Origin: Limnephilus marmoratus
Taxonomy: Eukaryota > Arthropoda > Insecta > Trichoptera > Limnephilidae
DNA: 64,000 nucleotides
Direction: 5' to 3'
NCBI GenBank assembly: GCA_917880885.1
Contig: OU862916.1
Location: 46,474,831 to 46,538,830, forward strand
A program made the translations under genes and the position numbers. The notes under the pieces are model-generated. The model was given only the letters and a program-made list of their open reading frames with translations, was not told where the DNA came from and made no database searches. Of the stretch, positions 1 to 43,395 are shown piece by piece (position 1 is the first letter of the stretch; every line of letters begins with the position of its first letter).

Positions 1-2058
1 CCAGATGTATTGCTTTGGTTACCATATATATAAATAGACATATATAAGATTTTACGCTGTGAGTCTTACGGCTAACACCTGATTTGATCAAAATGGGGCC
101 GCAGAAATCCACGCCTGATGATTGAAATGCGCGACCTTCCGTTATTCGTTCGGCAGGTAGGTCCGCCATCAGTTGTTGCTCTGTTTTCGGGTTACATCTA
201 AAACATATAATACAGTATCTGAGAACCTTTTTAATTAAATTTTTACCCATAATCGGCCAGTATTTCATTCTTAATAACGCTAACAATGCCTGCGTTCCTG
301 CATGTAAATATAAATAATGGTAGTGCCTGACAATAAGCTCACTTAGTTTATGATGTGATGGTAGTACTATGGGGTGCTGTTGGCTTTCCGATATCATTTT
401 TCCGTTGGACAACCTACCCCCTACCCGGATTAAATCCTTAAACAAATAAGGATTTAATGACTTTAACCTACTACTATTCTTTACATTTACCCCGGCTTGT
501 AAGGCCCTCGTCTCTTCGGGGAATGCAAAACATTGTGCACGAGATATTAATAAGTGAAGTGAATTCTCCAATTCGTAAACAGTTAGTGCTCCGCTACGCC
601 TGGACAAGGAATTTCTGCAATTAAATATAAATCTTAAAATATAAGCTGTCACCCTTTGCAATTTGGTTAAGCAAGAGTATCTGGAAAATATTTCCCAATC
701 CTGTTTTACGGCTGAAATTAAAGTTAGTTTTAATCTTTCTTCTGGTAGATCCAACGGCGTAACTTCACTGCTGGTAATCGGGTAATCGCCTGAAATCAAC
801 CAGGTGGGTCCATGCCACCAAATGTCAGACTTTAGTAGCTGCGACACCGTCGCGCCTCTGGATAAAACGTCCGCCGCATTATCCTCCGATCTTACGTGTT
901 TCCATTGTGCGGGTTGACTGGACTCTTGGATTTCAGCTACCCTATTGGCCACAAATGTGTTCCACCTTGCTGGCTGTCCACGAATCCAGAATAGCGTTAT
1001 CATGGAATCGCACCAGTAGGTTGTATCTATTTCATTTAAGTTCATAGCTATTTTGACATAGTTCACTAATTTTGTGAGTAAAACAGCACCACAAAGCTCC
1101 AGCTTTGGTAGTGATATGCTTTTCAACGGTGCCACCCTTGATTTTGATGTGACTAAATAAGAAGTTGTGTTTCCCGATTCATCAGTAGACACTATATATA
1201 TACATGCTGCATAGGCCCTCTCCGAGGCGTCACAGAATCCATGCAGATGCAGTTTAACTTGATGTTTGCAAATTACCTTTCTCGGTATTTTTAAATTATT
1301 TAAAAGAGGTAATTCATTTATGTATGAATTCCACGCATTCATCTGTTCAGATGGAACATCTTCGTCCCACTGAATCTTAGTTTGCCACAAACTTTGCATT
1401 ATCAGTTTTGCGACTAAAGTTATTGGGCCTATCAGTCCCAATGGGTCAAAGGTAGAGGCGATACATGATAACATTTGGCGTTTGCTTTTAACGCAGGCTT
1501 CTAAGGGCTCTACAATGTACTGAAAATAGTCCTGCTGATTATTCCATGACAACCCTAGAATTTTCTTTTCCTTGGGGTTATCAGTAATAATCATATCTGT
1601 ATCACTCTCTGGTTTCGAACTTATAGAGGGTAAATTTGATCGCCATTTTCGTAAATTCATGCCAGCAGATGCCAAAATGCTGCTCAACTGTTGCTTAATA
1701 GTGAGACAATCTGCCTCATTTTCGTCGCCAGTTATCAAATCATCCATATAAAAGTTGTATTTGAGGATGCGACTGACCTTTCTGTATGCTTCTTGATTTT
1801 CTGTTCCTAACTGTTCCAAGCATCTGGTAGCCAGAAAGGATGATGGTCCCAAACCATAGGTGACAGTATTGAGTTGATAGTGTCGGATTTCTTCTTCCGG
1901 AGAGTCCCTCCAGACTATGCGCTGCAAATCTCTATCCTCAGGCTGCACCAATATTTGACGATACATCTTCTCGATGTCGGCAGTTAATGCATACTGGTGC
2001 TTTCTGAAAAATAATAATTGCGCACATAAATCCTTTTGTAAAACTGGCCCTACCATGA
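1..2058 (-). pseudogene. BEL/Pao reverse transcriptase, RNase H and integrase start, frame-shifted from gag
   Basis: Continues the polyprotein in a shifted frame. The reverse transcriptase has LTADIEKMYRQ and the catalytic YMDD (about 1739-1750). The Pao-specific linker region and the RNase H-type block follow: KLELCGAVLLTK, YWCDSMITLFWI and SEDNAADVLSRG. The integrase zinc-binding domain reads HYHYLYLHAGTQALL to CIICFRCNP, and the integrase core starts with GVDFCGPI (first catalytic D). The frame stays open by eye to base 1, where VTKAIHL shows the core continuing outside the window. No start codon of its own would be expected, because it is the second half of one polyprotein. The only break I see is the palindrome at its 5' edge, so the element lost function mainly through that event. 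Confidence 0.88.
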
Positions 2059-2074
2059 GGTAGGGCCAGTTTTA
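2039..2074. repeat. Perfect 16-bp-arm palindrome inside pol
   Basis: Arms 2039-2054 and 2059-2074 are exact reverse complements around a 4-base loop (ATGA). The right arm is the expected coding sequence (for the residues MVGPVLQ); the left arm replaces the few codons that should read N-D-A-L and adds about 4 bases, shifting the frame. It is best explained as a templated copying error, not a functional site. Confidence 0.9.
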
Positions 2075-4268
2075 ATGATATACCGGTTGATGACTTGGCT
2101 GATCCGTCAAACACGACCCTGGTTTTGGTTGTCGTGCTAGACTCCTTCATCACTGCATGGTGTGGCAAATAATAATAAATTTTATCTTTTGGCGGTGCTT
2201 CGCACAGCGTCATATGCCCCAATTCCTGATACTCTTTCATGAATTTTTTATAATCTAGCATCAGGTCCTTATTGGCAAGAAATTTTTTTTCCATATTATA
2301 GAATCTTTTTTCAGCCACCTTTAGGGTTTCACCCATTTGATTAATATTGGGCCGCAGCGGTAATCTTACCGCAAAACGTCCTTTCTTATCTCTTTCATGC
2401 GTGCGTAAGAAGCTCTCTTCACATGCTCTTTCTTCGTGGCTTCTATGTTTTACAGGAGCTAGTTCTTCTATTTTCCAAAAGCTTTCTAATTGCTTATGCA
2501 ATAAATTTAAGGATAAATTACAGGAATTTACTGGCCTTTTTGGTTTCGGAGTGGAGATAGGTCCAGCGACAAGCCATCCTAGCTCGGTCCTTTGTAGCGT
2601 GAGTCCAGCATCTCCAATTCTCATTCGATCGGTATGCAAGACCTCCCAGAACACCTCCGCTCCCAGTAGCAGATCTATCGGGCTGGTAATGTTGAAGTTC
2701 GGATCTGCTAATTGGAGACCGCTAGGGATCCCCGCGTCTTTTCTCTGAAAGGAAATTTGTGGCAGGTTACTGGTCACTTCAGGTATTATCAGGCATTCTA
2801 TATTCCTTTTATATTCAGAATAGCTTGAAGTTATATTGAATTCCACTTTATATTTTATATTTAAAATCTTATTGTGGATTCCCGTAACAGGAATGTTGAC
2901 CCTTTTCTCTTTTGATTTCAATTTCTTTGCAAATTCCTTACTTATAAAATTAGTTTGTGCCCCAGAATCTAATAGAGCTCTTGCTTGAATTGATTGTCCG
3001 GCATCGTCCTTTATGTTGATGATGGCAGTGGACAATAACACGAAATTTGGTTCTACCTTCGCGGCATGATTTGTTACCAAAGGCGCTTCCTTCGCGGAAG
3101 ATGTTGATGCCCTTTCGTGTTTTGATTCCTCCTCTTGTTTAAAATGAAGTAACGTATTGTGATTTACGCCATCGCATTTACGGCAATTAAATTTTGATTT
3201 GCAATCCTTTAATTTATGACCGAAGTTTAAACATTTTAAACAAGCGCCTAATTTGTGTATTTTATCAATTCGTTCTTTTGGCTTCAATTCCAAAAATTTG
3301 CGGCAATAATAAATCTTATGATTATCGTTGCAATGTAAACATTTTAATTTTTGTGCAGAAAATGAAACCATAGCTTCCTTTTTATAATTATGCGGATTCG
3401 TTTTTCCCGGATTAATTCTTTTTTCGTTATTTGATGAGGCCTCTAATACTTGGGCCCTTGTATACAAACATTTAATAAATTCTTCGTAGGTAGGTAGATT
3501 GTTTTTTGTTGGGTATTGTTCCCAATGAGCCCTTGTATTTGAATCTAGCTTGTTTGATAACAAATAAATCAATACTACATCCCAATTTTTCGTAGCTATA
3601 TTTAATTTATTTAGCGATTTTAAATGCAACTGTGCCTCGTCCAATAGGCTTCTTATTGCGACGTGATTTTCTGCTTTTAAGTCCGGTAATTTAAACAACG
3701 CGTTTACATGATTATTTATAATTATTTTTGAGTTTTCGTATCTGTCCGTGAGCATCTCCCAGGCCATTAAATAGTTGTCAACTTGCATTGGCAATGCTGT
3801 TATAAGCTTAAGCGCTTCCCCTTTTAGACAAGAACGCAAATAATAAAATTTTTGAACGGCATCTAGGTTAGAATTACTGTCTACTAAAGATATAAACGCA
3901 TCTCGGAATTCTATCCATTCGCAGTAATCACCCTTAAATTTTGGTAACTCTATTATCGGCAGTTTAATGTTGTTGTTTGTTTTGCCTGCGGAATGGTCCG
4001 AACCTAACCTCTCTTTAGCGTTGGATAAAACATCAAAATAATCGTTTTCAAAGCTCGCCCTTTCTTGATCTCCCTCATCGGGAGATAAGGCTTCTATATT
4101 ACCTTGAATTTCCTCGAATTGATCCATTAAAAGCTCGAAATGTTTTATACGTAATCCTAGCTCACTTTGTGTCAACGAAATTTTGTTTAAAAATTCTCTG
4201 AATCTCGTGACTTTCCCCTTACAGATTCCCCTTTTACCGATTAGCGTTTTTAAATCCATTTTTATCAA
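2060..4268 (-). CDS. BEL/Pao gag, protease and start of reverse transcriptase
   Basis: Encodes the structural and early enzymatic part of a BEL/Pao polyprotein. Residues about 1-280 are the gag-like region (starting LKTLIGKRG, the counterpart of LKSLVKKRG in the second copy) and contain the conserved block LPKFKGDYCEWIEFRDAF. Two cysteine-rich zinc-binding blocks follow near residues 310 and 341 (CLHCNDNH and CLKCLNFGHKLKDC, then CRKCDGVNH), which would bind RNA. An aspartic protease of the retropepsin type sits near residue 432 (ALLDSGAQTNFI, active-site D-S-G). ELGWLVAGPI at about 560 marks the link to the polymerase, and VVFDGSAKSS begins the reverse transcriptase. The first ATG (4268) gives MIKMDLK; the ATG at 4259 is equally likely because the family normally starts just before LKxLxxKRG. 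Correct reading ends at the palindrome near 2060; translation beyond it is out of frame to a stop at 1938. Confidence 0.9.
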
Positions 4269-5130: not shown

Positions 5131-5251
5131 TGAGAGTTCTCACCTAATGTTTTTACGTGGATCTCGAGAGGTGTGAGTCCTGGCTAAATTCGATATTTAA
5201 AGGCCTGAATTTTATACAGTTATAATTATAAAAATATTACACTAAGTAACT

Positions 5252-5998
5252 ATGACTACGCGATCAAACTCTAAGTCCGGCAGTAACCTCAATACGGAAC
5301 TTCTACAACTTTTAGACAACAAGTTTGAAGACTTCAAAACTCATTTTCTAGAGAAAACATTTGAAGAGTTTAAAAACAATATAGTCGAAGTCATAAAAAA
5401 TGAATTCAAAGAGGAAATTAATCAGCTCAAAAAAAAAGTGTTCCAATTGGAAAAACAAATTGAAATAAACGACCAATTTAATCGCTCCAATAACGTTATA
5501 ATAAGTGGTATTCCTGAAACCAAAAACGAAAATGTGTACGACATCCTCTCCAAGATAGGCGCCACAGCTGGATGCAATATAACCCGACAAGAAGTGGATT
5601 TCGCTAGCAGGATTGCCCCCAGGACAAACCGTGATGCAAAAAATGGAAGACCGAGGAACATTGTTGTCAAATTAACTCGCAGGTACCTTAAGGATGAACT
5701 CATAAGTGCTATAAGAAAGAGGAAAGGAATGCTTGCTTCCGAATTACAGCTTCCTGGAACCAGTAAAATATATATTAACGACCATCTAACCTCAAAAAAC
5801 CAACTTTTGCTGAAGCAATGTCGCGATATAAGAATGGCTGGTAAAATTCGCTATTGCTGGGTTCGAAATGGTAAAATTTTCACTCGTATAAGCGATTCAA
5901 CCCCCATAATTCTTATTAATGACCAAGAAGATGTCAACAAACTCTCAACATTGAAGTCCACCCAAAATTCACCTACCAGGTCTGCCGTCCCTTTATGA
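5252..5998 (+). CDS. Non-LTR retrotransposon ORF1 protein
   Basis: A 248-residue nucleic-acid-binding protein of the kind encoded first in CR1/Jockey elements. Residues about 15-75 are rich in K, E and heptad hydrophobics (FKEEINQLKKKVFQLEKQI), predicting a coiled coil that would multimerise. From about residue 80 (NNVIISGIPETKNENVYD) the pattern matches the RNA-binding domain shared by many insect LINE ORF1 proteins and the baculovirus FP-type C-terminal region, with basic stretches (RRYLKDELISAIRKRKGM) and a conserved IYINDHLTSKN block near 180. There is no CCHC zinc knuckle. The stop codon TGA overlaps the next ATG as ATGA at 5995-5998. The role in particle formation is inferred from related elements. 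Confidence 0.85.
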   Translation: MTTRSNSKSGSNLNTELLQLLDNKFEDFKTHFLEKTFEEFKNNIVEVIKNEFKEEINQLKKKVFQLEKQIEINDQFNRSNNVIISGIPETKNENVYDILSKIGATAGCNITRQEVDFASRIAPRTNRDAKNGRPRNIVVKLTRRYLKDELISAIRKRKGMLASELQLPGTSKIYINDHLTSKNQLLLKQCRDIRMAGKIRYCWVRNGKIFTRISDSTPIILINDQEDVNKLSTLKSTQNSPTRSAVPL

Positions 5999-6633
5999 AT
6001 TTAAATTCATTAAAATTATTAAAAAACTTCCCACATACAATTTACTTAAGAGTTAACCTTTTGGAATGTTGGAATCATCTTTATTATATTCACAATATCT
6101 CCATTGTAGTAATTAAAGAATCATTAGAGTATTTCAATTATCACAAAAAACTGTTGCTAACTTTTGAACTTAATTATTCTTTAAAACAACAACAAAATAT
6201 TTATTATATGCACGATTTCTCCACTGTAATAATTATTAACGAATTGCTAGAGTGGTTCAAATATCACAAAAACCGGTTGCTAACTTTTGAACAAAATTAT
6301 ACTTTAAAACTTTCTCATTATCCTCATGTACTATCACAATCTATTAAATATAAAACACGATCGCAACCTATTACAAATAATTGCACAATGATAACATACT
6401 TTTATGTAACAAATGTATGCTTAGTATCTTGTTTACTATTCAAAAACCTATTTCTGTCAACATTAATGACAACTGACACCATAGACAAAATCAAATACCA
6501 CAAACAAACCAAAACTAATGATGTTCATAATTGCCCCCTTTCAAAGCATAATTACTTACTTTTCAATAATTTATTTTACAAAAAAATGTATTTAATAATG
6601 CTTATTATATTATACTTTCAAAATGGATTCTAA
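5995..6633 (+). CDS. Unrecognised middle ORF between ORF1 and ORF2
   Basis: A 212-codon ORF that starts at the ATGA overlap with the ORF1 stop and ends at TAA 6631-6633, 11 bases inside ORF2 (ATG 6623). It is rich in I, L, N, Y, H and K and matches no family I know; the C-terminal third is hydrophobic (LLFNNLFYKKMYLIMLIILY). Residues about 30-115 hold two copies of a 41-residue block (KLLLTFELNYSLK versus NRLLTFEQNYTLK), encoded by a 123-bp direct repeat that keeps the frame despite many substitutions. In DNA this AT-rich, 212 codons without a stop are unlikely by chance. Arrangement suggests termination-reinitiation, but it could also be a 5' leader of ORF2 that is merely open. Confidence 0.5.
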   Translation: MNLNSLKLLKNFPHTIYLRVNLLECWNHLYYIHNISIVVIKESLEYFNYHKKLLLTFELNYSLKQQQNIYYMHDFSTVIIINELLEWFKYHKNRLLTFEQNYTLKLSHYPHVLSQSIKYKTRSQPITNNCTMITYFYVTNVCLVSCLLFKNLFLSTLMTTDTIDKIKYHKQTKTNDVHNCPLSKHNYLLFNNLFYKKMYLIMLIILYFQNGF

Positions 6634-9493
6634 CAAAACGGCAATAACATTTTATTATCAAAATGTACGTGGTTTAAAAAGCAAATTAAACGATCTATAC
6701 TGCGAAGTGCTCAGTTGCAATTATGATTTAATTTGTTTTACAGAAACATGGCTAGATTCCACAATCTATGACCATGAAATAGTAGATGATCGTTATAATA
6801 TATATAGACGCGATAGGGACATATCGAGTTCTCTTAAAAAATCAGGTGGTGGTGTTCTAATAGCCATTAAGAAAGAAATGACATCTTTTTTAGTCTCAGC
6901 ACACAGTTCAAAATCTACAGAAGATTTATGGATTAAATTTAAATTACATGAAACATCCAGACAATCCATTAACCTATGTTTGGCGTATTTGCCTCCAGAT
7001 ATACTAACTGAAAATCTCGCAGATTTTTTCGAAAAGTGTCAAACGACATATAATAACTTTTCATCAGAAGATATAACAATAATAATGGGCGATTTTAATG
7101 TGCCATCTATTCAATACTCACCAAATGTCAATGTAACGCACACCAGACCAGTCTTACAAAATAGCCAGAAATCAATATCTCTACTAGACTTTCAAAATTT
7201 GACCAGACTTAAGCAATTCAATTACGTCTCTAACAACATAGGTCAAATTTTAGATTTAGTGTTTTCCAATCATAACCTCAACATTCAAATTGCTTCACAT
7301 GTGCTATCCAAAATTGACTATTATCATCCTCCCATTGAATTTGATTTTTTAATGTCCAAATACAGACCCCTACCCACCAATCCAGATCACATCAAATATA
7401 ACTTCAAAAAAACGGATTACATTAAATGCAATGAAATGTTGTCACTTAATAACTGGGACGATCTTAATAGCCTGAATTGTAATGACTCCCTACTACATTT
7501 TTATAACTTGTTATGGCTATCAATTGAAAAACACACTCCGCGCTTAAGAATCAGGAATAATAAGTTTCCAATTTGGTTTAGCAGTGTTCTCATCCACCAA
7601 CTCAGAGAAAAAGAAAAGTTTAGAAAGAAATGGAAAAAATACAAAAATCAATGTGACTATGACAGTTTTTCTATTTTGAGGGCTAGAGTAAAAGTATCCA
7701 TACGTACATGCCTTAAAGCCTATGTAGATTCAGTAGAAAATTCTCTCCCTAACAGTATCAAAAATCTTTCAACTCTCATTAATTCGAAAAGAATTTCAAA
7801 TTCTCTCCCCAAAATCATGCATCTCCACGACAAATCAGCAACAAATGGAGAAGATACGTGTGAGCTGTTATCTACTTACTTCTCTTCTGTTTTTACCCCA
7901 CCATCCAATTCTAAGAGTGACTCTAAACTTTCATCCCCACTCTATAATTATCCACTGTCTCATATCAATATAACGTTAGACGAGGTCAAAGCAAAATTAA
8001 ACACTGTTGATATCAATAAGGGTTCCGGCCCAGATGGAATTCCTCCACTATTTATTCGAAATTGTGCAGATCAGCTTGCAACACCATTACACAAAATATT
8101 CATCAAAAGTCTGAACGATGGGGTATTTCCGGATCTTTGGAAGGTTGCCCACGTAATTCCAATCTACAAATCTGGCAGTAAAAATGATGTAACTAACTAC
8201 CGTCCTACCAGCCTTTTATCTTGTTTTGGCAAAATATTCGAGTCCATTGTATATAAAACCATTTTTAACCATGTAACACATATACTTAGTCCTTTCCAAC
8301 ATGGATTTGTAGCTAAAAGATCCACAAATACTAATTTACTCGAATATATGGACTTTCTGTGTAAATCGATAAATAATAAAACACAAGTAGATGCCGTGTA
8401 CACCGACTTCAGTAAGGCCTTTGACAAAGTTAGTCACTCTATCTTAATTAATAAACTCGATAAAATCGGCATTCACGGAAACCTGCTTCGTTGGTTAGAA
8501 TCATATTTATCACATAGAAGTCAATTAGTTACTATTAACGGATATAACTCTTCCCCAATATTAGTTACGTCGGGCGTACCACAAGGATCTCACCTTGGAC
8601 CCTTACTTTTCTTAATCTTTATTAACGACCTTACACATAAACTCCGCTGTAATTTTTCTCTATATGCTGATGACCTCAAATTATATAAAGAAATTAAATC
8701 TTTGAAAGATTGTGAACTCTTACAACAAGACCTTAACACAATATCTACCTGGTGTGTTGACAATGAAATGGAACTGAATATTGCTAAGTGCAAAGTTATA
8801 AACTTCACCAAGAACACCAACAAAATTCTATATTCATATAGCATATGTGGTCACAATCTCGAAACAGTTGAATTAATAAAAGATTTAGGAATTATATTTG
8901 ACAACAAACTGACATTTAATCAGCACATTGAATATATTGTGAGTAAATCAAATAAATTACTAGGTTTTATTGTAAGATCAACCAAACTGTTTAAGAATTC
9001 TAATAGCCTAATAATTCTATTCAATTCCTTAATCCGAAGTGTTCTTGAGTACGGGTCAACAGTCTGGAATCCACATTATATTACACAGATATCTAGACTC
9101 GAATCAGTCCAAAGAAAATTTACACGGATTTTGTCTTACCGATCAGGTGTCCACCATCTTCTAGACGGGTATGAACAAAGACTTACATATTTCAAATTAG
9201 AGAGTCTAGTTAAAAGACGAAACATAAATGACCTCTTAATGCTCTATAAAATTGTGAATAATCGTGTAGACAGTAACTTAGTCAACCAAATTAAGTTATA
9301 CGCCAGGCCCAAATCTACAAGAACCCTTAACATATTTTGGACTGAAATTTTTACAAATAATACTGGATATTTTAATCCTATATCTAGAATGTCACGGTCA
9401 TACAACGATCTTGTCAAAATACACAGTTCCATAGAAATTTTTGCAAATAATATAACATATTTCAAAAAATATCTCCACAATTTGTGCACTTAA
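6623..9493 (+). CDS. Non-LTR retrotransposon ORF2: endonuclease and reverse transcriptase
   Basis: A 956-residue protein that nicks target DNA and copies the element RNA from the nick. The N-terminal apurinic-type endonuclease shows YYQNVRGLKSK (about residue 12), LICFTETWLD (about 35), MGDFNVPS (about 155) and a DYYHPPIEF block (about 235) in place of the usual SDH. The reverse transcriptase shows GSGPDGIPPLFI (about 470), YRPTSLLSCFGKIFE (about 525, with T where I is usual), HGFVAKRSTNTNL, DFSKAFDKVSH, SGVPQGSHLGPLLF, the catalytic YADD (about 680) and LGIIFDNKLTFNQH. The C-terminal region (ESVQRKFTRILSYRSG) is typical of CR1/Jockey elements. No RNase H follows. All catalytic motifs are present and the frame is unbroken. 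Confidence 0.93.
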   Translation: MDSNKTAITFYYQNVRGLKSKLNDLYCEVLSCNYDLICFTETWLDSTIYDHEIVDDRYNIYRRDRDISSSLKKSGGGVLIAIKKEMTSFLVSAHSSKSTEDLWIKFKLHETSRQSINLCLAYLPPDILTENLADFFEKCQTTYNNFSSEDITIIMGDFNVPSIQYSPNVNVTHTRPVLQNSQKSISLLDFQNLTRLKQFNYVSNNIGQILDLVFSNHNLNIQIASHVLSKIDYYHPPIEFDFLMSKYRPLPTNPDHIKYNFKKTDYIKCNEMLSLNNWDDLNSLNCNDSLLHFYNLLWLSIEKHTPRLRIRNNKFPIWFSSVLIHQLREKEKFRKKWKKYKNQCDYDSFSILRARVKVSIRTCLKAYVDSVENSLPNSIKNLSTLINSKRISNSLPKIMHLHDKSATNGEDTCELLSTYFSSVFTPPSNSKSDSKLSSPLYNYPLSHINITLDEVKAKLNTVDINKGSGPDGIPPLFIRNCADQLATPLHKIFIKSLNDGVFPDLWKVAHVIPIYKSGSKNDVTNYRPTSLLSCFGKIFESIVYKTIFNHVTHILSPFQHGFVAKRSTNTNLLEYMDFLCKSINNKTQVDAVYTDFSKAFDKVSHSILINKLDKIGIHGNLLRWLESYLSHRSQLVTINGYNSSPILVTSGVPQGSHLGPLLFLIFINDLTHKLRCNFSLYADDLKLYKEIKSLKDCELLQQDLNTISTWCVDNEMELNIAKCKVINFTKNTNKILYSYSICGHNLETVELIKDLGIIFDNKLTFNQHIEYIVSKSNKLLGFIVRSTKLFKNSNSLIILFNSLIRSVLEYGSTVWNPHYITQISRLESVQRKFTRILSYRSGVHHLLDGYEQRLTYFKLESLVKRRNINDLLMLYKIVNNRVDSNLVNQIKLYARPKSTRTLNIFWTEIFTNNTGYFNPISRMSRSYNDLVKIHSSIEIFANNITYFKKYLHNLCT

Positions 9494-9781
9494 AAAAAAA
9501 AAAAAGTTACATTAGATACTTTTCAGTAAATACTTTATAAATATTGTATACTTGTTGTTATTATGTATTTCAATTTTGTATTTAAGTTTTCAACTTATGT
9601 ATAAATAATACTTGCGTTGTTTTTCAAGAGTTTGCTTCTGTGAAAATGCATATGTGAATAATGCAGACACATTAATCTAGGGATACTTATATTTGTATTT
9701 TAATTTATTATATACTACCCACAAAAATGTTATATAAATATCCTGTTTGTGTCTCAAATAAATAAATAAATAAATAAATAA
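9494..9781 (+). repeat. Non-LTR 3' UTR with (AAAT)n tail
   Basis: An A-run directly follows the ORF2 stop, then an AT-rich 3' UTR, ending in about six AAAT units at 9757-9781. Such a microsatellite tail is the usual priming end of this class. Confidence 0.8.
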
Positions 9782-10076
9782 CCCATACCAGCCTCTCAAA
9801 TAAATGTTCAATGATCAACCACTGGAATTTTTCAGGCACGGAATAAAAAGCTTAGGAAGTCAATCGTAAGTAATGCAAGGGAATATAATATTAAATAGAT
9901 TATTTGCTTTTATCACTTGTTATATAATTACAACAATAATAATAATTAAAACTATAAGTTAGTGATCTCACCACACTTTCCATGTTTTAGTAAGTTATAC
10001 CGTCAGTAAAGCATACATAAGTCTTCCGTTTAAGTTGTTCCCCCGCCCTAGTGAAGTTTACAGGAACATTATAACA
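9782..10076 (-). other. Possible remainder of the BEL/Pao 1 LTR
   Basis: On the minus strand the segment begins TGTTATAATGTTCC at 10076, a start typical of BEL/Pao LTRs, and it directly follows the non-LTR element. If it belongs with 4844-5130, the non-LTR element is nested in the LTR. Sequence alone cannot prove this because the other LTR is outside the window. Confidence 0.3.
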
Positions 10077-42088: not shown

Positions 42089-42100
42089 TTTTCATCCCGC

Positions 42101-43285
42101 GACAAAATATCCCCAACAAATTATCATACCGACAAAACATCCCCTGACAAAATATCCCCGACAAATTATAATACCGACAAAACATCCCCTGACAAAATAT
42201 CCCCGACAAATTATCATACCGACAAAACATCCCCTGACAAAATATCCTCGACAAATTATCATACCGACAAAACATCCCCTGACAAAATATCCCCGACAAA
42301 TTATCATACCGACAAAACATCCCCCGACAAAATATCCCCGACAAATTATCATACCGACAAAACATCCCCCGACAAAATATCCCCGACAAATTATCATACC
42401 GACAAAACATCCCCTGACAAAATATCCCCGACAAATTATCATACCGACAAAACATCCCCTGACAAAATATCCCCGACAAATTATCATACCGACAAAACAT
42501 CCCCTGACAAAATATCCTCGACAAATTATCATACCGACAAAACATCCCCTGACAAAATATCCCCGACAAATTATCATACCGACAAAACATCCCCCGACAA
42601 AATATCCCCGACAAATTATCATACCGACAAAACATCCCCCGACAAAATATCCCCGACAAATTATCATACCGACAAAACATCCCCTGACAAAATATCCCCG
42701 ACAAATTATCATACCGACAAAACATCCCCTAACAAAATATCCCCGACAAATTATCATACCGACAAAACATCCCCTGACAAAATATCCCCGACAAATTATC
42801 ATACCGACAAAACATCCCCTGACAAAATATCCCCGACAAATTATCATACCGACAAAACATCCCCTGACAAAATATCCCCGACAAATTATCATACCGACAA
42901 AACATCCCCTAACAAAATATCCCCGACAAATTATCATACCGACAAAACATCCCCTGACAAAATATCCCCGACAAATTATCATACCGACAAAACATCCCCT
43001 GACAAAATATCCCCGACAAATTATCATACCGACAAAACATCCCCTGACAAAATATCCCCGACAAATTATCATACCGACAAAACATCCCCTAACAAAATAT
43101 CCCCGACAAATTATCATACCGACAAAACATCCCCTGACAAAATATCCCCGACAAATTATCATACCGACAAAACATCCCCTGACAAAATATCCCCGACAAA
43201 TTATCATACCGACAAAACATCCCCTGACAAAATATCCCCAACAAAATATCCCCGACAAAATATCCCCGACAAAATATCCCCGACA
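42101..43285 (+). repeat. 45-bp minisatellite, 25 copies
   Basis: TTATCATACC recurs every 45 bp from 42121 to 43201. Each unit is three related sub-units of 16, 15 and 14 bases (GACAAATTATCATACC, GACAAAACATCCCCT, GACAAAATATCCCC). Copies differ by few substitutions (CCCCCG, CTAAC and CCTCG variants), themselves in a pattern repeated at longer spacing. The unit length is a multiple of three, so several frames stay open; these are not genes. Confidence 0.97.
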
Positions 43286-43395
43286 AAATATCCTAACCTA
43301 ACATAACCAAACCTATACTGACCTAACCCAACTCAACAAAACCTAACCTAACCTAACCCAACCTTACCTAACCTAACCTAACATAATCCAATAAA
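43286..43395 (+). repeat. Degenerate CCTAA (TTAGG-type) repeats
   Basis: ATCCTAACCTAACATAACC, AACCTAACCTAACCTAACCC and ACCTAACCTAACCTAAC with interspersed variants, the insect telomere motif in an interstitial place inside the foldback-like element. Confidence 0.8.

Follow-up and report, generated by a model that had tools for sequence, protein, structure and literature searches.

A LINE with a third ORF between ORF1 and ORF2

The stretch of Limnephilus marmoratus DNA analyzed here (64,000 nt in length, hereafter the window) contains a young, full-length, 4.6-kb LINE of the APE type at positions 5208 to ~9781. The element is an APE-type non-LTR retrotransposon, as shown by an ORF2 that encodes both an endonuclease and a reverse transcriptase (RT), the occurrence of 5′-truncated copies, a simple tail, and no LTRs. 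Its parts are the following, all on the plus strand.

5208..5251, +: 5′ UTR of 44 nt; among 39 aligned genomic copies, 23 have their first position at 5208
5252..5998, +: ORF1, 248 aa, with Baculo_FP_2nd at residues 180–231 (Pfam E 5e-11)
5989..5995, +: CCCTTTA, read in the ORF1 frame as C_CCT_TTA, immediately before the TGA; fits X_XXY_YYZ
5995..5998, +: ATGA, the ORF3 start over the ORF1 stop
5995..6633, +: ORF3 (bridge ORF), 212 codons
6080..6310, +: in-frame tandem duplication inside ORF3, period 120–123 nt
6520..6622, +: 3′ part of ORF3 with nucleotide-level conservation across families, a possible cis signal
6623..6633, +: 11-nt overlap ATGGATTCTAA of the ORF3 stop with the ORF2 start
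6623..9493, +: ORF2, 956 aa, with endonuclease (PF14529, PF03372) and reverse transcriptase (PF00078) domains
9494..9781, +: 3′ UTR and (AAAT)n tail, the tail being 9756–9781

The three ORF2 domains (PF14529, PF03372, and PF00078) all score above the Pfam cut-off. Within ORF1, Transposase_22 (L1 RBD-like) is matched at a Pfam E-value of 0.22 only, and the Baculo_FP_2nd domain is only a lead toward the CR1/jockey group. The frame of ORF1 is also that of ORF2, and ORF3 is shifted by −1 with respect to ORF1. In alignments to the window, 15 of the 39 copies start downstream of 5211 (5′-truncated), and 31 reach 9690–9783. The named relatives of ORF2 in a list of 120 come from Euphydryas, Dendrolimus, and Parnassius, with 39–41% identity; the LINEs of these lepidopteran assemblies are likewise of the APE type, with an ORF2 that can be aligned nearly end to end with that of the window. 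No relatives were found in a viral contig collection, while a genome contig collection gave a single locus (L066), in a bacterial bin, that matches part of ORF2 at 22% identity.

Immediately before the LINE, the minus strand carries an ORF with DUF1759 (1938–4268, Pfam E 2e-38), which may be a Bel/Pao-like gag. Further along the window, 42093–43292 is occupied by a C-rich satellite with a 45-nt unit (26.7 copies, 97% matches, GC skew −0.64).

Copies and related families

A DNA search of the species' own genome (1.63 Gb) gives at least 41 matches to ORF3 with 94–100% identity (40 of 327 candidates scored), and our sample of family A, to which the window element belongs, consists of 39 copies read besides the window. 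Translated searches of the same genome were run with ORF3, yielding at least 229 matches from several families (150 of 500 candidates scored), and with the family F protein (150 of 558 candidates scored). For the further families, the copies read are L056 and L057 (B), L058 (C), L059 (D), L060 (E), L061 (F), L062 (G), L063 and L064 (H), and L065 (J), together with L067, an E-type copy.

Outside its own genome, ORF3 is matched by P0001 (191 aa, 67% identical by BLASTP and 72% in alignment) and P0122 (139 aa, 49% and 56%, respectively), both of which keep the frame and the C-terminal end YFQN(G/E)F. Both came from among predicted proteins, which makes an open frame to some extent a prerequisite for detecting them. 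A close copy of P0001 was not found in the own genome among the 150 of 571 candidates scored, where the best end-to-end match has 75% identity and a match elsewhere reaches 77% over residues 1–98. Of the end-to-end matches listed for P0001, 43 of 46 are free of stops when the window is counted in, as are 16 of 17 of those listed for the F protein; both counts are biased toward openness because such matches are selected by being in frame. In the open representatives, the length of ORF3 ranges from 159 to 226 codons, and its junction with ORF2 is retained. The related families retain the ORF, its overlaps, and its openness, which fits the proposal of an earlier sequence-only reading of this DNA that the layout may serve the delivery of ORF2.

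At C4:895695-896366, C8:11185986-11186453, and C5:7903184-7903606, the ORF3 frame is reported as part of an open frame of 1111–1190 codons that is continuous with ORF2 through an indel; as read, the C8 copy (L063) has a TAA between ORF3 and ORF2. The loci C22:14331724-14332185 and C22:15468196-15468657 have equal scores and one internal TAA each, which could be a shared ORF3 break. Another match with one TAA (L067, C1:16306515) was considered as a nonsense family and rejected, as it is the E-type copy, with the TAA within the E-type spacer and ORF3 open downstream.

The open frame and its internal repeat

What the sequence-only reading had described of ORF3 itself is borne out. The 212-codon ORF is tied by overlap to both neighbors (ATGA at 5995–5998 and 11 nt at 6623–6633), it has 0 stops in its own frame versus 23 and 15 in the other two forward frames, it contains a duplication whose copies have diverged, and Pfam assigns it to no family. 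The longest open run is 207 of 208 codons, compared with a mean of 56, a 99.9th percentile of 130, and a maximum of 207 in 20,000 sequences from a dinucleotide model. The probability that this openness arose by chance is small, though the model attained 207 at least once. Removal of the second repeat copy still leaves an open run of 166 codons. Codon periodicity within ORF3 is weak.

The duplication is detected by TRF at 6080–6310 with a period of 123, 1.9 copies, and 82% matches, and its pieces are 83% identical at a spacing of 123 and 85% at a spacing of 120. It is present in the read copies of families A–D and in P0001. The expectation that the 41-residue repeat would persist is not upheld, as only one unit is present in E, F, G, and P0122.

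Selection on amino acids in the three ORFs

We compared the three ORFs by dN/dS, calibrating with a mutation spectrum of 475 singletons (35 copies and the window, with four diverged copies left out), from which a neutral N:S of 2.98–3.37 is predicted for seven ORF3 sequences. Between the window and the family F copy (F061), the calibrated dN/dS is 0.99 (0.63–1.73) for ORF3, 0.17 (0.10–0.28) for ORF1, and 0.28 (0.20–0.38) for ORF2, and the difference between ORF3 and the other two combined is strong (Fisher p 3e-9). Overall, the calibrated ORF3 values are 0.99–1.46, with upper limits to 3.06. The NG86 estimates between families follow the same order: 0.09–0.12 for ORF1 in well-separated pairs; 0.17–0.41 for ORF2 in 19 of 21 pairs, with values up to 0.65 in close or partial pairs; and 0.57–1.27 for ORF3 over 21 pairs, 16 of which fall at 0.70–1.03.

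The positions of the differences within codons agree with these ratios. For the window versus F061, the counts at the first, second, and third positions are 29, 31, and 34 in ORF3, 12, 13, and 56 in ORF1, and 35, 26, and 97 in ORF2, and the parsimony total for ORF3 is also flat (42, 51, and 51). Within family A, variants found in at least two copies have N:S counts of 21:8 in ORF3, 3:10 in ORF1, and 38 (plus 2 nonsense):38 in ORF2 (p 0.018 for ORF3 versus the other two). In comparisons between families, purifying selection is seen in ORF1 and ORF2, while amino-acid constraint appears lost in ORF3. The sequence-only reading had looked for a dN/dS below 1 across copies as the mark of a conserved protein and had named a value near 1 as speaking against it; the value obtained is about 1.

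The same reading took the hydrophobic end of ORF3 as a hint of a membrane or aggregation role. The hydrophobicity is true of the letters, but this part is conserved at the nucleotide level, with no excess of synonymous change, and the proposed role finds no footing in a dN/dS of about 1, an AlphaFold2 pLDDT of 32.7 (7 sequences), and the absence of a Pfam match. We also set aside ORF3 as a folded protein on the basis of this pLDDT, which is weak evidence given the shallow alignment of 7 sequences. Compared with random translation, the amino-acid composition of ORF3 is unremarkable in three of four families (family C, p 0.04), a test that is powerless because no ORF1 or ORF2 block stands out either.

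Over the last ~38 codons of ORF3, the nucleotide difference is 0.04–0.07 in four pairs versus 0.08–0.27 elsewhere in a block comparison that leaves out blocks of 5 codons. ORF2 likewise shows little nucleotide change over its first ~20 codons. The conservation of these adjoining segments may reflect a cis signal or simply recombination, the latter being possible because ORF2 dS between the window and F061 (0.15) is much below ORF1 dS (0.45). When the window is compared to L061 and L062, ORF1 dS is about 0.45–0.48 and ORF2 dS is 0.15–0.18, which points to 3′ recombination or homogenization.

Substitutions and indels in the ORF3 frame

The amino acids of ORF3 look free, but the open frame does not. 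Among the parsimony changes in ungapped columns of six representatives, placed on an assumed tree, 0 of 144 are nonsense, where 10.8 are expected at 7.5% per change (P 1.3e-5). This count leans toward openness, as the six were mostly picked open, so that private nonsense was excluded beforehand and nonsense common to a whole family was not. By comparison, 7 of 102 ORF3 singletons in family A are nonsense (p 0.002 versus 0/144). The propagated ORF3 changes of family A include 0 nonsense among 29, a weak test, with about 2 expected at the singleton rate.

Indels lead to a similar picture. Private indels in family A are multiples of three in 0 of 15 cases in ORF3, 0 of 10 in ORF1, and 17 of 65 in ORF2 (17 of 90 pooled), whereas lineage-level indels in ORF3, counted by eye, are triplets in 10 of 14 (p 5e-5 versus private ORF3 indels, 1.6e-4 versus all 90 pooled, and 0.0035 versus ORF2 alone). 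The triplet indels include a 33-nt duplication in C, one of 33 nt in G, and a 3-nt insertion common to 12 family A copies; the four shared indels that are not triplets are 11 nt in D, poly-A indels in H and J, and +A in three family A copies. In neutral simulations (1000 each), the gap between ORF1 and ORF2 is still bridged by one ORF in 3.6% of cases after 50 changes and in 0.3% after 95. Stops and frameshifts at the neutral rate, which the sequence-only reading had named as refuting evidence, are not seen, apart from the breaks that have propagated in D, H, and J.

One-base length variation affects the A-homopolymer at window position 5429 (ORF1) in 6 of 39 copies and the one at 6020 (ORF3) in 3 of 39, which may be recurrent slippage or sequencing error.

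Families with a shortened ORF3 or a different ORF1

In family D (L059), an 11-nt insertion ends ORF3 after 165 codons. Eleven search matches with the same span have a 189-codon open frame, and one copy of this family was read. Families H and J, both amplified, have poly-A indels that end ORF3 early, and a +A homopolymer frameshift in ORF3 is common to three family A copies. The spread of D, H, and J with a cut ORF3 argues against a need for the full-length protein. The next AUG, at 14, 2, or −8 nt from the premature stop in these three families, leads to the ORF2 overlap. We considered these re-entry AUGs as support for a relay of ribosomes and rejected them: a chain of AUGs reaches ORF2 in 93–98.5% of neutral simulations, so re-entry is nearly automatic in neutral sequence and uninformative. 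The gaps that follow the breaks are only suggestive by their shortness, being all ≤15 nt in 3 of 3 propagated versus 5 of 15 private breaks (p 0.07), or versus 5 of 17 when L017 and L041 are added (p 0.049).

The E lineage, which includes H and J, has another ORF1, the stop of which lies 49–52 nt before the ORF3 AUG without an ATGA overlap. That overlap is thus not needed for amplification. In all 4 of the E-type copies read through the joint, the ORF3 frame is opened by the first AUG past the stop of ORF1. For L067, which was read from a point inside the spacer, the first AUG leads into an ORF of 4 codons, and ORF3 is opened by the second AUG, a few nt farther. A chain model with a 10-nt reach picks first, in E-type elements, a 6-codon ORF overlapping the ORF1 stop. 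L060, L063, L064, and L065, from an amplified lineage, combine this LINE's ORF2 and the greater part of its ORF3 with the other ORF1, a swap of the 5′ module between LINE families.

Junctions and RNA signals

The representatives of A–D, F, and G share an identical CCCTTTATGA at the end of ORF1, as do 34 of 37 family A rows. At the start of ORF2, CAAAATGnATTCTAA is likewise invariant in the representatives of these families, apart from L056, which has GTG for ATG. The 11-nt overlap ATGGATTCTAA is found in 39 of 39 family A rows and takes the form ATGnATTCTAA in the other intact representatives, again except L056 (GTG). An overlapping stop-start is therefore seen at both junctions in the intact representatives of A–C, F, and G, apart from the GTG of L056 at ORF2, while E-type elements are without the first overlap.

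The heptamer pattern X_XXY_YYZ, fitted by CCCTTTA, is that of −1 slippery sites, and a −1 shift at this site would enter ORF3 at its ATG. No stimulatory structure was found downstream, with z-scores of 0.07 to 0.94 for 101-nt segments in A, C, F, and G (without pseudoknots) and 0.70 for a 61-nt segment in A. More generally, we rejected a structured IRES or frameshift stimulator, as none of 10 folded stretches is clearly above shuffles (best z −1.16, at the ORF2 start). The final 150 nt of ORF1 and of ORF3 contain no TURBS motif 1 (UGGGA). ORF3 of the window has 12 internal AUGs (10.1 expected), 7 of them out of frame, and ORF1 has 13 over three frames, its own start counted. Leaky scanning and a scanned spacer were likewise rejected, as AUGs are not depleted in ORF3 and ORF1 has 13.

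ORF3 as a possible translated spacer

The reading that we favor, with a probability of roughly 0.45, is that ORF3 may be a translated spacer, a bridge or relay ORF that would hand ribosomes from ORF1 to ORF2 by termination–reinitiation. Ribosomes ending at the ORF1 TGA would restart at the overlapping AUG (AUGA) and translate about 480–680 nt that a scanning subunit could hardly cross, as a scanning 40S would be trapped by the 12 AUGs of the window ORF3, 7 of which are out of frame. They would then terminate at the TAA over the ORF2 AUG and restart there, giving the APE–RT protein at low yield; translation would in this way clear the path and set the ribosome on the ORF2 AUG. Selection would act on translatability between the junctions and on the nucleotides near them, with the peptide exempt, and residues, length, and internal repeats would vary because selection spares the peptide. 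The position and overlaps of ORF3, its recurrence, the lack of nonsense substitutions among the representatives, the surplus of triplet indels, and the lost amino-acid constraint are observed; that ORF3 is translated, that it is entered by reinitiation, and that ORF2 is reached via ORF3 are inferences. The simplest account of a frame that is kept, residues and length that are free, and junctions that are mostly kept is that a ribosome must pass through. LINEs generally need scarce ORF2 protein, and two rounds of reinitiation in series would give that; on the other hand, eukaryotic ribosomes rarely reinitiate once they have translated a long ORF, and two rounds would be costly.

An unlikely alternative, though one to be taken seriously, is that ORF3 encodes a functional, very fast evolving accessory protein, for example in host-defense conflict, in which purifying and positive selection average to a dN/dS near 1. 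Calibrated values of 0.99–1.46 with upper limits to 3.06, a frame that is kept, and the 21 N to 8 S among propagated family A variants would all suit such a protein, and proteins engaged in arms races often show internal repeats and changes in length. However, the codon positions are flat, the conserved 3′ part is without synonymous excess, and D, H, and J have spread with the protein cut; the lack of a Pfam family and a pLDDT of 32.7 with 7 sequences, weak evidence from a shallow alignment, point the same way. It is quite unlikely that ORF3 is instead entered by −1 frameshifting at C_CCU_UUA abutting the ORF1 UGA, which would produce an ORF1–ORF3 fusion and leave ORF2 to reinitiation at the ORF3 stop. 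The heptamer is in the ORF1 frame and adjoins the stop, ORF3 occupies the −1 frame, and the representatives of A–D, F, and G agree fully in CCCTTTATGA despite an ORF1 dS of about 0.45–0.55 between A/C/D and F/G. This identity is nonetheless weak evidence, as it involves about three synonymous sites; no downstream stimulatory structure appears in four families (z 0.07 to 0.94, without pseudoknots), and the E-type ORF1 ends without such a site.

Similarly improbable is a decaying remnant of a once coding or bridging frame, its openness partly inherited and selection gone or going. A dN/dS of about 1 and the ORF3 breaks that have spread with D, H, and J are in keeping with decay, but nonsense at 0/144 where 10.8 is expected, the dominance of triplet indels between lineages, and end-to-end matches that are mostly stop-free (43/46 for P0001 and 16/17 for the F protein, albeit selected in frame) argue against it. 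We consider it very improbable that ORF3 is an AT-rich spacer that is open by chance and without a coding role, with ORF2 reached by internal initiation or scanning. No protein family is recognized and codon periodicity is weak, as this would predict, but the length of the open frame and its retention speak against it, and an open frame would not be required for internal entry or scanning.

If ORF3 is a translated spacer, the LINE would be a mobile element with a long ORF of irrelevant peptide that is kept only readable, with two termination–reinitiation junctions in series, so that ribosomes rather than scanning subunits cross to the RT ORF; we hold this fuller statement somewhat more tentatively than the spacer role itself. 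The question of ORF2 translation becomes testable in the family series of this one genome, which offers related junctions, bridges that vary in length and sequence, a swapped ORF1, and three bridges that are broken. A long frame that stays open without amino-acid constraint, if true, would also caution against equating openness with a functional protein in gene finding and dN/dS tests.

Comparison with known systems

The statement in the sequence-only reading that elements of this class normally have two ORFs is a fair one; no LINE of the present layout came up in the sources covered by our literature search. In particular, these sources describe no LINE in which an additional ORF is linked by overlaps to both ORF1 and ORF2, subscription papers and Repbase reports being outside the scope of the search. 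LINE-1 has an ORF0, which is antisense and located in the 5′ UTR. Like the element studied here, mammalian LINE-1 has ORF1, a spacer, and ORF2, but its spacer is not a long ORF. It is 63 nt in length. ORF2 of LINE-1 is translated after ORF1 by an unconventional route (PMC5972666). Zorro3 likewise has a separate ORF1 and ORF2, and no third ORF is described in the consulted part of the source (PMC1965478); for this and other LINEs with non-overlapping ORFs, the route of ORF2 translation was stated to be unknown in 2007 (PMC1965478). The consulted parts of PMC5972666, PMC5009743, PMC1965478, PMC5408684, and PMC3849965 describe no such joining ORF in a LINE.

ORF3s have been captured by bdelloid LTR retrotransposons, often without clear function and several with known domains (PMC5408684). 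Unlike the ORF3 described here, these belong to LTR elements, are additional to gag and pol, and are typically separate transcription units rather than a joint between ORFs (PMC5408684).

The short stop-start overlap of the window element resembles those of caliciviruses and influenza B (TURBS), with the difference that UGGGA is absent here from the final 150 nt of ORF1 and ORF3 and two junctions occur in series. In feline calicivirus, the overlap is AUGA. In influenza B, it is UAAUG (PMC3035654), and UGGGA is motif 1 of TURBS (PMC5972666). Reinitiation at overlapping stop-starts has precedent in viruses and in SART1 (PMC5972666), a non-LTR retrotransposon of the silkworm in which a UAAUG stop-start couples ORF1 and ORF2 and needs a downstream RNA structure (PMC5972666; original Kojima et al. 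2005). Both SART1 and the element described here are LINEs with a downstream ORF at an overlapping stop-start. In SART1, however, ORF1 leads directly to ORF2, while here no structure was found and an extra ORF of 159–226 codons lies between the two.
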